Assembly (NCBI RefSeq): GCF_026343945.1
Contig: NZ_JAPKNJ010000002.1
Span: 744,001 to 808,000 of the forward strand
Length of the DNA stretch: 64,000 nt
Source: Kaistia algarum
Lineage (GTDB): Bacteria; Pseudomonadota; Alphaproteobacteria; Rhizobiales; Kaistiaceae
Direction: 5' to 3'
The notes under the pieces are model-generated. The model saw only the letters and a program-made list of their open reading frames with translations, was not told the origin of the DNA and searched no databases. Below, one piece after another: positions 48,980 to 52,803 of the stretch. How positions within the stretch are numbered: the first letter of the stretch is position 1; the number at the start of each line of letters is the position of its first letter. Both the position numbers and the translations under genes were made by a program.

Positions 48980-50086
48980 TCAGGGCAAGGCGATGACGCC
49001 GCCGATCGTCGGCGCGGGAACCCCGGTCGTCTCGGGAAAGCTCGATGGCAGACCGGCGACGAAGCGGGCGGCGAGGAAGGCGAAGGCTTGTGCCTCCATG
49101 AAGTCGACCGACCAGCCATGCGCGTCGGCCGTCGAGATTTCGGCGCCACTCGCGTCCGCCAGAAAGCGCAGGATCGCTGGATTGTGCGCGCCGCCGCCAC
49201 ACACGACGATCCGGTGGGCACCGCCGGCCAGCGCGATGCCGCGCGCGATCGCCTCGGCCGTGAAAGCGGCCAGCGTCGCCGCCGCATCGGCGGTGGAAAG
49301 GCGGGCGACAGGCGAGCGCGAGAACGCGTCGCGGTCGAGCGATTTCGGCGGCGGCAGATCGAACCAGGCATCGCTCATCAATTCGGCGAGCGTCTGGGTC
49401 TGGACCCTGCCGGCGAGCGACAGGCGGCCGCCGCGATCCATCGGCTCTCCGGTGCGCTCGCGGACCAGATCGTCGATGAGCGCATTGCCGGGGCCGGTGT
49501 CGAAGGCGAGCACGGCACCATCCGCGGCGATCCGGGTGACATTGGCGACGCCGCCGATATTGACCACCGCGACGTCGCCTTCCAGCCCGGCCGCGCGAAC
49601 CAGCGCGCGATGATAGATCGGCACCAGCGGCGCGCCCTGCCCGCCCGCGGCCACGTCGGCGGCACGAAAATCATGGACGACCGGAATGCCGAGCCGGGCT
49701 GCGAGAGCCGCGCCATCACCGATCTGGACGGTGAGGCCTCGTGCGGGGGCGTGAAAGACCGTCTGGCCATGGAAGCCGACGAGCATGACGCGCGGCGCAT
49801 CGACGTCCTCGCGGGCCAGCAGCGCCTCGACCGCCTCGGCATGGGCGTCGGTGACGATCCGTTCGGCCTCGGCAAGCACGCCCGGCCGCGCGCTGCGATC
49901 CATGATGGAGACGGCTGCCGCGAGCGCGGCGCGCAGCACGGTGCGCTCCGCCTCGGAATAGGGACGAAAATGGGTTGGGCCAAAGGCCTCCACCACCTCG
50001 CCGTCGGTCGCGATCAGCGCGGCGTCGACCCCGTCCATCGAGGTCCCGCTCATCAGGCCGACGACCACCATTCTCGACTTCTTCAT
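48980..50086 (-). CDS. anmK: Anhydro-N-acetylmuramic acid kinase
   Basis: Recycles cell wall: converts 1,6-anhydro-MurNAc to MurNAc-6-phosphate. 368 residues with GLMSGTSMDGVDAALI, FHGQTVFH, VNIGGVANVT, FDTGPGNALIDDL and CGGGAHNP, all AnmK signatures. ATG at 50086 chosen, behind GAGAGAG; 50071 is a less likely alternative. Divergent from the DAHP synthase leader; anmK beside tyrS is common in rhizobia, with the DAHP synthase gene here lying between them. Confidence 0.95.
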   Translation of the reverse strand: MKKSRMVVVGLMSGTSMDGVDAALIATDGEVVEAFGPTHFRPYSEAERTVLRAALAAAVSIMDRSARPGVLAEAERIVTDAHAEAVEALLAREDVDAPRVMLVGFHGQTVFHAPARGLTVQIGDGAALAARLGIPVVHDFRAADVAAGGQGAPLVPIYHRALVRAAGLEGDVAVVNIGGVANVTRIAADGAVLAFDTGPGNALIDDLVRERTGEPMDRGGRLSLAGRVQTQTLAELMSDAWFDLPPPKSLDRDAFSRSPVARLSTADAAATLAAFTAEAIARGIALAGGAHRIVVCGGGAHNPAILRFLADASGAEISTADAHGWSVDFMEAQAFAFLAARFVAGLPSSFPETTGVPAPTIGGVIALP

Positions 50087-50140
50087 CGGCTCTCTCGACG
50101 CTCTGGACCCCGACTGTCGCCCTAGCCGACAAAGTCGCAC

Positions 50141-50169
50141 GTGACAAATGCAATCGGCTCGACTATATC
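50141..50169 (+). promoter_or_regulatory. Sigma-70-type promoter of the DAHP synthase operon
   Basis: −35 GTGACA (50141-50146; five of six to TTGACA), 17-base spacer, −10 TATATC (50164-50169). Transcription would start about seven bases after the −10, at or within a base or two of the leader-peptide ATG at 50176, predicting a leaderless leader mRNA. Confidence 0.68.
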
Positions 50170-50175
50170 CGCGCC

Positions 50176-50262
50176 ATGATCCTCTCTGCCCGCACCTTTT
50201 TCTTCGGTTGGTATTTTGGCTATCCGTTGCCGTTGGCGGAGCTAGGGACGCGCTCGAAATAG
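50176..50262 (+). CDS. Aromatic-rich leader peptide of DAHP synthase attenuator
   Basis: A 28-residue open frame, too short to be noticed as a gene, that begins MILSART and then reads FFFGWYFGY at residues 8-16: seven of nine codons specify Phe, Trp or Tyr, the end products of the pathway. It ends with TAG at 50260. No ribosome binding site precedes it, consistent with translation from the 5' end of the transcript. A terminator hairpin follows 24 bases later and the DAHP synthase starts at 50351. Classic translation-coupled attenuation layout. Confidence 0.85.
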   Translation: MILSARTFFFGWYFGYPLPLAELGTRSK

Positions 50263-50286
50263 ATACCGAAGCGAAAGTAACCCCAG

Positions 50287-50314
50287 AGCCGCCGAACCTT
50301 CCGGCGGCTTTTTT
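50287..50314 (+). terminator. Attenuator terminator before DAHP synthase
   Basis: AGCCGCCG / CGGCGGCT eight-base stem, seven-base loop, immediately followed by six T. It lies between leader peptide and structural gene. GGCGG inside the leader (50235-50239) could pair with CCGCC of the terminator arm (50289-50293) to form an antiterminator when ribosomes stall at the aromatic codons; that pairing is inferred. Confidence 0.9.
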
Positions 50315-50350
50315 GTTGCCGCGGACGGGTCGAAACCAAGGAGCCCGAAC

Positions 50351-51433
50351 GTGCCGAACACCACCGACGACCTGCGAATCCGCGAAATCAAGGAACTGAC
50401 GCCGCCCGCCGACGTGATGGCGGAATTCGTCCGCTCCGAGGCGGCTAGCCAGACCGTGCGCGCAGGCCGCGCCGCCACCCATGCCATCCTGCATGGCGAA
50501 GACGACCGCCTCGCCGTCGTCATCGGCCCCTGCTCGATCCATGATCCGGAAGCCGCGATCGACTATGCGACCCGCCTGGCCGCCGAGCGCAAGCGCCTTT
50601 CCGGCTCGCTTGAGATCATTATGCGCGTGTATTTCGAGAAGCCGCGCACCACGGTCGGCTGGAAGGGCCTCATCAACGACCCGAACCTCGACGGCAGCTT
50701 CGAGATCAACAAGGGCCTGCGGATTGCTCGCAAGCTCCTCGTCGCGGTCAACGAGCTCGGCGTTCCGGCCGGTTGCGAATTCCTCGACATGACGACGCCG
50801 CAATATCTCGCAGACCTCGTCGGCTGGGGGGCGATCGGCGCGCGGACGACCGAGAGCCAGGTTCACCGCGAACTTGCCTCCGGCCTCTCCTGCCCCGTCG
50901 GCTTCAAGAATGGCACCGATGGCAACGTCAAGATCGCGGTCGATGCGGTACAGTCGGCCTCGCAGCCGCATCATTTCCTGGCCGTGACCAAGCAGGGCCG
51001 TTCCGCAATCGCGGCGACGACGGGGAACGAGGACTGCCACATCATCCTGCGCGGCGGCAAGGCACCGAATTATGACGCGGCCAGCGTCGACGCGGCGGCG
51101 AGCGAACTTGCCAAGGCGGGCCTCGCACCCTTCGTCATGATCGATGCAAGCCACGCCAACAGCCTGAAGAAGCCGGAAAACCAGCCGAAGGTCGTCGATG
51201 AGATCGCGCTACAGATCGAAGCCGGCGACGATCGCATCATGGGCGTGATGGTCGAGAGCAATCTCGTCGCTGGCCGCCAGGATCTCGTTCCCGGCAAGCC
51301 GCTGGTCTATGGCCAGAGCATCACGGATGGCTGCATCGACTGGGACAGCTCGGTTGTGGTTCTCGACCGTCTCGCGGCAGCCGTGGAGGCTCGGCGCAAA
51401 GCCATGCGCAACAAGAATACCGCCGCGGCCTGA
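50351..51433 (+). CDS. aroG: 3-deoxy-7-phosphoheptulonate (DAHP) synthase, class I
   Basis: First committed step of aromatic amino acid synthesis: PEP plus erythrose-4-phosphate to DAHP. 360 residues of the AroF/G/H family: GPCSIHDPEAAIDYA (metal cysteine C61), MRVYFEKPRTTVGWKG, LINDPNLDGSF, GARTTESQVHRELASGLSCPVGFKNGT-type core (in pieces), and DASHANSLKK. GTG start at 50351 with AAGGAG seven bases upstream. Controlled by the leader peptide and terminator upstream. Whether it is the Phe-, Tyr- or Trp-sensitive isozyme cannot be told. Confidence 0.95.
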   Translation: MPNTTDDLRIREIKELTPPADVMAEFVRSEAASQTVRAGRAATHAILHGEDDRLAVVIGPCSIHDPEAAIDYATRLAAERKRLSGSLEIIMRVYFEKPRTTVGWKGLINDPNLDGSFEINKGLRIARKLLVAVNELGVPAGCEFLDMTTPQYLADLVGWGAIGARTTESQVHRELASGLSCPVGFKNGTDGNVKIAVDAVQSASQPHHFLAVTKQGRSAIAATTGNEDCHIILRGGKAPNYDAASVDAAASELAKAGLAPFVMIDASHANSLKKPENQPKVVDEIALQIEAGDDRIMGVMVESNLVAGRQDLVPGKPLVYGQSITDGCIDWDSSVVVLDRLAAAVEARRKAMRNKNTAAA

Positions 51434-51449
51434 CCGAAGCCGGCGGACG

Positions 51450-51473
51450 GAGATGGCGGTGCGCCGCCATCTC
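51450..51473 (+). terminator. Hairpin between DAHP synthase and tyrS
   Basis: GAGATGGCGG / CCGCCATCTC ten-base perfect stem with TGCG tetraloop, 16 bases after the DAHP synthase stop. Followed by GCCCTTT rather than a clean T-run, so a partial terminator or 3'-end stabiliser. Confidence 0.6.
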
Positions 51474-51549
51474 GCCCTTTCCAGATGAAACTTCGCCTTA
51501 TCGCTGCTAAACAGCGGCCAAAATCGCCGTTGCCGAGGAAGACTTCGTC

Positions 51550-52803
51550 ATGACCGCCTTCAAATCCGAGCTCATGCAGATCCTGACGGAGCGCGGGTTC
51601 ATCCACCAGTGCTCCGACACCGAAGCGCTCGACCAGCGCTTCGCCAGCGAAACGGTCACCGGATATATCGGCTTCGACGCGACGGCGAAGAGCCTGCATG
51701 TCGGCTCGCTGATGCAGATCATGATGCTGCGCTGGATGCAGAAGACCGGTCACCGGCCAATCGCGCTGATGGGCGGCGGCACGACCCGGATCGGCGACCC
51801 CTCCTTCAAGGACGAGGCGCGCAAGCTCCTCACCGACGAGGCGATCGCCGAGAACCTCGTCGGCATCCGGGAGATCTTCGCCAACTACCTCGACTTCGAG
51901 GGAGGTGAACCGCCGGCCATCATGGCCAACAATGCCGACTGGCTGAACGACCTCAAATATATCGACTTCCTGCGCGATGTCGGCCGACACTTCTCGATCA
52001 ACCGCATGCTGTCCTTCGACAGCGTGAAGCTACGGCTCGACCGAGAGCAGTCGCTGTCGTTCCTCGAATTCAACTACATGATCCTGCAGGGCTACGACTT
52101 CGTCGAGCTCTACCAGCGCCATGGTTGCGTCCTGCAGATGGGCGGCTCCGACCAGTGGGGCAACATCGTCAACGGCATCGAACTCGGCCACCGGATGCTC
52201 GGCCAGCAATTCTTCGCGCTGACGACGCCGCTGCTGACGACCTCGTCCGGAGCTAAGATGGGCAAGACCGCCTCAGGCGCCGTCTGGCTAAACGAGGAAA
52301 TGCTGTCGTCGTTCGAGTTCTGGCAATTCTGGCGCAACACCGAGGACGGCGACGTCGAGCGCTTCCTGAAGCTCTATACCGAGCTTCCGCTGACGGAGAT
52401 CGCGCGCCTGTCGGCATTGCAGGGCTCCGAGATCAACGAGGCGAAGAAGGTGCTGGCGACCGAGGTCACGGCGCTAGCTCGCGGCCGCGCGGCCGCCGAA
52501 GCAGCGGCAGAGACTGCGCGGCGCACCTTCGAGGAAGGCGCGCTCGCCGAGGACCTGCCGACCATCGACATCCCTGCCGGCGAGTTCGAAGCCGGCATCG
52601 GCGTGCTCTCGCTCTTCGTCCGCGCCGGTCTCGTCGCCTCGAACGGCGAGGCGCGGCGCCAGGTGAAGGGCGGCGGCCTCCGGATCAACGACAGCGCCGT
52701 CAGCGACGAGAAGGCCATCATCAGCCCGGCGAGCCTGACGCCCGAGGGCGTCGTCAAGCTTTCGCTCGGCCGCAAGAAGCACGTTCTGGTGCGGCCGGCC
52801 TGA
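51550..52803 (+). CDS. tyrS: Tyrosyl-tRNA synthetase
   Basis: Charges tRNA-Tyr. 417 residues, class I synthetase of the TyrRS group with KMGKT as the KMSKS-like loop: [20 protein letters not shown] (HIGH-like HVGS), tyrosine-binding [18 protein letters not shown], and a C-terminal S4 RNA-binding domain (about 350-417). No T-box or leader attenuator precedes it. It lies downstream of the DAHP synthase, a functional link through tyrosine. Confidence 0.97.

Follow-up and report, generated by a model that had tools for sequence, protein, structure and literature searches.

The class I 3-deoxy-7-phosphoheptulonate (DAHP) synthase gene, aroG, of Kaistia algarum is preceded by a region that we interpret, with a probability of about 0.86, as a ribosome-mediated transcription attenuator of the leader-peptide type, in which a short ORF carries a run of product codons and an intrinsic terminator lies between this leader ORF and the gene. 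The sequence analysed, hereafter the window, is a stretch of 64,000 nt corresponding to G000:C2:744001-808000 in a genome of 5.26 Mb. A preliminary description of this DNA had proposed attenuation by ribosomes stalled on a mixed aromatic, apparently leaderless leader, and this proposal is well supported by the comparison with relatives and by the modelling reported here.

The leader locus

The features on which the interpretation depends are listed here with their positions in the window.

50141..50169, (+): promoter, with -35 GTGACA at 50141-50146, a spacer of 17 nt and -10 TATATC at 50164-50169, assigned from the sequence and its relatives
50176..50262, (+): leader-peptide ORF of 28 codons, with no Shine-Dalgarno match, apparently leaderless
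50197..50223, (+): sensor codons Phe8-Tyr16, TTT TTC TTC GGT TGG TAT TTT GGC TAT
50233..50239, (+): arm A, TTGGCGG, the 5' arm of the antiterminator, whose GGCGG core begins 11 nt past the last aromatic codon
50233..50295, (+): predicted antiterminator hairpin, -24.7 kcal/mol, with the leader stop codon (50260-50262) in its loop
50285..50314, (+): intrinsic terminator, with arms AGAGCCGCCG and CGGCGGCTTT and six T at 50309-50314
50338..50343, (+): Shine-Dalgarno sequence AAGGAG of aroG, assigned from the sequence
50351..51433, (+): aroG, class I DAHP synthase of 360 aa with a GTG start (TIGR00034, 530.7 bits)

The promoter, the leader ATG, the 28-codon frame and the DAHP synthase gene stand where the preliminary description had placed them. 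The leader translates to MILSARTFFFGWYFGYPLPLAELGTRSK*, in which FFFGWYFGY occupies residues 8-16 and supplies four Phe, one Trp and two Tyr codons; no aromatic run as good as this was obtained in 5,000 dinucleotide shuffles of the 400 nt upstream of aroG. Seven leader peptides were compared with Pfam and NCBIfam, and no match was found at E up to 1. The stem and the six T that had been pointed out beforehand were also confirmed, the stem having ten pairs at 50285-50311 and the T-run extending to 50314. The same description had called the product the entry enzyme of the pathway; aroG does encode a DAHP synthase, but it is one of two, since the genome also encodes a class II enzyme (PF01474) at G000:C2:40172-41485, outside the window.

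The neighbours of aroG are anmK (48980-50083, opposite strand), for anhydro-N-acetylmuramic acid kinase, and tyrS (51550-52803), and the aroG of Kaistia hirudinis is 89% identical to that of the window. In the gap of 116 nt between aroG and tyrS (51434-51549) a terminator scan listed nothing, and an inverted repeat without a good T-run was seen by eye; read-through of the attenuator might raise tyrosyl-tRNA synthetase as well.

Conservation of the leader before class I aroG

Class I loci were taken from 23 of 101 genomes, that of the window included, together with the best 80 named loci among the matches listed, and the resulting 103 loci gave 100 distinct upstream sequences, 84 of which (44 alphaproteobacterial and 40 others) remained when near-copies were set aside. 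The absence of the aromatic run and terminator from orthologous genes had been named beforehand as a refutation of the attenuator. An ATG-started aromatic mini-ORF, followed by a stem with a CCGCC or CCGCT 5' arm and a T-run, is present at all 103 class I loci fetched, which span alpha-, beta- and gammaproteobacteria; these loci were picked by similarity to the AroG of the window, and the figure is therefore not the share among all class I genes. A wider sample consisted of 60 upstream regions among the matches listed for 396 sampled genomes of the phylum, some of them belonging to paralogues in one genome; here 19 regions have an aromatic ORF with a CCGCC-type terminator, and the pair is absent from the other 41, a few of which have an aromatic ORF alone.

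We placed the leaders on a quick maximum-likelihood tree of 124 AroG proteins (the 84 and 40 of the 60), which was midpoint-rooted and left 40 of its 121 inner branches open. Of the 103 leader-bearing rows, all but one lie within a single group of 105 rows (SH-aLRT 93, not starred), and the leader label changes five times on the tree against 19.7 times in shuffles. The 44 alphaproteobacterial rows are nested together close to Rhodanobacteraceae. This pattern is consistent with the leader and the gene having travelled together. A stretch of 19 residues, YYFWFYGYPMPLAEVGARS, is common to the leader of one Kaistia (L005) and that of Dyella sp. OK004 (L060). One record labelled Mycobacterium sp. 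KBS0706 (L025) has aroG with a leader and groups among the alphaproteobacteria; it is perhaps misnamed.

A covariance model, R1, was built from the alphaproteobacterial leaders and searched against two genome sets. Strong full-length matches (E 1.2e-7 or better) were found in 23 of the 101 genomes, one in each and exactly in those with class I aroG, many of which had served to train R1. Among 289 genomes of the class there were eight strong matches (E 1.6e-14 or better), and of the seven beyond that of the window, six lie ahead of a frame bearing the N-terminal motif of DAHP synthases, and the seventh (L245) lies at a contig edge. Weak matches (E 1e-5 to 0.01) occurred in 19 further genomes of the 101 and in 63 of the class sample, covering mostly the terminator only; at the 13 such places fetched (L251-L263), aroG was not among the three longest frames.

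Class II genes serve as a control. A protein search found class II DAHP synthase in 96 of the 101 genomes and class I in 23. No aromatic leader was found in 39 regions upstream of class II genes (L104-L133, L164-L172), one being of unclear frame, and the best aromatic run score was 6.4 in these regions as against at least 8.0 in the class I set; the attenuator thus goes with the class I isozyme. One simple scan upstream of the organism's own trpE and pheA (L264, L265) found no clear Trp or Phe leader.

The comparison also bears on how the leader is translated. A strict consensus promoter scan of 49900-50500, whose rule demands T at the last -10 position, listed no promoter, and the -35/-10 pair of the window was read directly from the sequence; 6 nt lie between TATATC and the leader ATG at 50176. 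Of the 44 alphaproteobacterial leaders, 35 have their best -10 box ending 6-7 nt ahead of the ATG, a spacing that no more than 9 of 44 reach when the 60 nt upstream are shuffled 100 times; GTGACA and a spacer of 17 nt recur in 33 of the 44, and the mean promoter score of 13.44 exceeds the maximum of 10.82 in 100 shuffles. Before the leader ATG there is no Shine-Dalgarno match of at least 4 bases in 42 of the 44, while such a sequence is matched in the last 30 nt before the aroG match, likewise in 42, and the base preceding the ATG is C in 93%. The spacing of the -10 box fits leaderless translation of the leader in alphaproteobacteria, and transcription in the window would start at A50176 or 1-2 bases from the leader AUG. 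Bradyrhizobium japonicum has documented leaderless mRNAs, according to the passages cited here (PMC4842269). In eight Oxalobacteraceae-like leaders (L069, L083, L085, L089, L091, L092, L099, L100) TATAGT ends 25-27 nt before the ATG, apparently marking a switch between leaderless and leadered forms; in that of Duganella (L076) the distance is 6 nt.

The predicted switch and its dependence on ribosome position

The stretch 50273-50314 folds as the terminator at -17.8 kcal/mol (z -4.85), with none of 200 shuffles as good, and the antiterminator hairpin at 50233-50295 has z -2.29, with 3 of 200 shuffles as good; the hairpin of arms A and B is the more stable at -24.7 kcal/mol, against -17.3 for the terminator (-17.8 as the stretch 50273-50314). 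The arms recur among the leaders: A is GGCGG, located in the leader downstream of the run, B is CCGCC, and C is GGCGG followed by the T-run. GGCGG of arm A is present in 75 of the 84 leaders, and in 51 of these 75 it starts 11 nt beyond the final aromatic codon; the remaining nine have GGTGG, AGCGG or shifted pairs; the spacings across leaders include 8, 11 or 17 nt. The fold of the whole region 50176-50350 is unremarkable when compared with shuffles (z -0.82). A protector (1:2) pairing is predicted in 75 of 75 leaders without a ribosome; for the window itself we dropped it, as 50176-50272 folds no better than shuffles (z +0.83).

In the mechanism that we propose, the transcript would begin at the leader AUG or within 1-2 bases of it, so that a ribosome would load on the 5' end immediately. 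When aromatic aminoacyl-tRNAs are ample, the ribosome would clear the run, mask arm A and, on completing the leader, open the hairpin over the stop codon; B would then be free to pair with C, and transcription would terminate near 50314, giving a predicted short transcript of 139 nt (50176 to about 50314). When Phe, Tyr or Trp is scarce, the ribosome would pause on the run with its leading edge just short of arm A, A would pair with B before C is synthesised, and RNA polymerase would continue into aroG.

We modelled this dependence by masking all RNA up to a point 15 nt beyond the P-site codon's first base, where E. coli work places the edge of the footprint, and folding the rest up to B. In the window, B is held for every aromatic codon in the A site and free at codon 18, the change falling between codons 16 and 18. 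Across the 84 leaders, upstream RNA holds B in 83 when the last aromatic codon occupies the A site, and in all 84 at positions 1-4 codons before it; the hold is first lost 1-2 codons past the last aromatic codon in 62 of the 84. A mutually exclusive antiterminator governed by ribosome position is predicted in silico. Release is incomplete, B being still held in 15-37 of the 84 leaders at 2-8 codons past the last aromatic codon. When the codons after the run were recoded synonymously, keeping the same peptide, B was held in 83-84% of trials, and in the recoding test of A:B strength only 18 of the 84 leaders reached the 5% level, so that GC-rich sequence explains part of the A:B pairing. For the window RNA at full length, equilibrium folding with the ribosome stalled at Phe8-Phe10 or at Tyr16 favours the terminator, and the model therefore requires A:B to have formed before C is synthesised; in ribosome-free folding once B is made, A:B is predicted in 38 of 75 leaders. 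A second antiterminator helix (GGG:CCC) of at least 4 pairs occurs in 68% of 75 leaders; swapping the partners lowers this to 55%, and the highest value among 300 swaps is 65%, so that the excess is modest.

A covariation check had been recommended in the preliminary description. The terminator pairs and the stop-codon hairpin covary, but covariation of helix A:B is not significant in alphaproteobacteria, where its core hardly varies and the helix is almost invariant. In the terminator of 42 aligned alphaproteobacterial leaders, three pairs have both sides changed, which 11 of 500 shuffles reach; L023 and L101 were excluded from the alignment A1. The hairpin over the leader stop codon has a mean of 11.0 as against 10.62 for the highest of 300 swaps (41 alphaproteobacterial leaders), with variants such as CAAT/ATTG, CGATC/GATTG, GCGGT/ACCGC and CGCGT/ACGCG. 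RNAalifold on the alignment A2 gave no covarying pair and did not recover the full antiterminator; we think that MAFFT misplaces the variable loop in A2, and pairs were therefore examined sequence by sequence. The A:B flanks change together across classes in a few clades, e.g., T:A to A:T in L076, L092 and L099. A:B energy is -19.34 within genomes and -18.20 between genomes, with none of 5,000 permutations as good, a difference to which relatedness of the rows contributes.

Amino acids sensed and relation to known attenuators

Sensing of all three products is suggested by codon content: Phe, Tyr and Trp occur together in 43 of the 44 alphaproteobacterial runs. It is possible, but on balance we think unlikely, that the attenuator is instead dominated by Phe, with the Phe codons, chiefly the last UUU, acting as the sensor and the Trp and Tyr codons as bystanders. 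In 83 of the 84 leaders the run has TTT as its final Phe codon (50215-50217 in the window), and TTT makes up 70 of 89 Phe codons in the alphaproteobacterial runs as against 10 of 256 in the matching aroG sequences, in leaders whose codons ahead of the run have G or C in third position in 90% of cases. The position is a strongly constrained synonymous site. Our interpretation is that a slow Phe codon is selected for where the decision falls, although a cause at the RNA level is possible. Tyr codons in alphaproteobacteria have no significant bias (TAT in 66 of 111 in runs, 118 of 229 in aroG); among the 40 other runs, 30 have Phe and Tyr only, nine have all three and one has Phe and Trp; and aroR of Corynebacterium glutamicum, with Phe-Tyr-Phe, responds to Phe but not to Tyr according to the part of the source cited (PMC11802643). 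A pure Phe sensor would, however, have no need of the three-residue set that the alphaproteobacterial runs retain, and the Tyr codons of the 40 non-alphaproteobacterial leaders are biased too (TAT in 47 of 83 against 74 of 229).

Two other explanations appear very improbable to us. The leader peptide might itself arrest the ribosome in the manner of TnaC, on binding of a free amino acid and not through uncharged tRNA, and the leaders often resemble one another in the residues that follow the run (PLAEVG.RS and the like); this stretch is, however, conserved as RNA, containing arm A and the stop-codon hairpin, and the aromatic residues exchange freely among relatives, which is not expected of an arrest peptide. 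Just as improbable is an independent small-RNA gene with its own terminator, standing before aroG by coincidence. The promoter, the 139-nt unit and the terminator would suit such a gene, and rnTrpL of Sinorhizobium meliloti is leaderless and acts in trans, as stated in the parts of the sources cited (PMC10117765, PMC7298713); against coincidence stand the pairing with class I aroG at all the loci fetched and in the 23 relatives having the gene, and the predicted ribosome-position switch. By analogy, the terminated RNA could conceivably have a role in trans alongside attenuation. A chance ORF before an ordinary terminator of divergent or upstream transcription has a negligible probability: in its favour, the lowest run score in the class I set, 8.0, is reached by 1.7% of shuffles, but conservation, the class II control and the shuffles together refute it.

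We have also compared the leader with known families. Neither the window nor the leaders of 40 relatives matched a fitting family of Rfam 15 at gathering score. The Phe_leader family RF01859, which controls pheA, is likewise a Phe-rich leader with a terminator, and it gave a weak full-length match at 50181-50317 with 34.2 bits, below the gathering score of 55; none of the 40 relatives reached that score. RcsR1, sroD, asX2 and BcKCsr7 also gave weak Rfam matches, which we took as chance; the match of BcKCsr7 overlaps the leader and was therefore examined in the relatives, yet none of the 40, Burkholderiales-like ones included, match it at gathering. No paper describing this proteobacterial aroG leader was found in the open-licence PMC literature; Vitreschak et al. 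2004, reportedly the main survey of proteobacterial attenuators, may list it.

The closest precedent among the systems considered is the aroR-aroF attenuator of Corynebacterium glutamicum, reportedly the subject of Neshat et al. 2014. The aroG leader is of the same type, an aromatic leader with a terminator before a DAHP synthase gene, and stalling at aromatic codons relieves termination there (PMC11802643, PMC4046766); the passages cited describe a response to Phe only and mention no Trp, and the organism belongs to another phylum. The likeness meant here is one of design. For attenuation at the committed aromatic step, Corynebacterium is the only tested case reported in the passages cited here. 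The uORFC-13-1 motif of Acholeplasma, upstream of aroF, likewise combines a terminator with a predicted uORF that contains one Phe codon or more, but it comprises 24 sequences from one genus and environmental DNA, and no mixed aromatic run is described in the part of the source cited, which also mentions an attenuation hypothesis of 1980 for E. coli aroF (PMC8632094). Two Vibrio species have putative attenuators upstream of the aroA(I-alpha)-tyrA operon, which likewise precede a class I DAHP synthase gene in gammaproteobacteria, but they come from a prediction website by way of a table, and no leader peptide is given in the passages cited (PMC1173090). The rnTrpL/peTrpL system of S. meliloti is a rhizobial attenuator with a leaderless leader ORF and a short terminated RNA, features that are predicted for the aroG leader too, but its 14-aa Trp leader precedes trpE(G), and trans-acting products are demonstrated in the passages cited (PMC10117765, PMC7298713). 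The design of the aroG leader is very likely that of a widespread attenuator of known kind.

A broader reading can be offered tentatively, and we consider it less likely than not: one old attenuator family, mostly leaderless in alphaproteobacteria, may have accompanied class I aroG across the alpha-, beta- and gammaproteobacteria, and would bring a second DAHP synthase into play on demand, a shortage of Phe or of Tyr or, in alphaproteobacteria, of Trp being enough (OR logic), the near-fixed UUU at the last Phe being the slow point that sets sensitivity and the ribosome edge being gauged against arm A to the codon. Importance of the leaders lies in that they form a large set of naturally varied switches of one design, carried by genera including Bradyrhizobium, Mesorhizobium and Devosia, which lets the weighing of several amino acids by a mixed-codon leader be tested. 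The useful variation includes Trp kept or lost, arm A at 8, 11 or 17 nt, a short or longer distance from the -10 box, and a UUU that is nearly fixed. The leaders also suggest which of the two DAHP synthase isozymes is regulated by attenuation.
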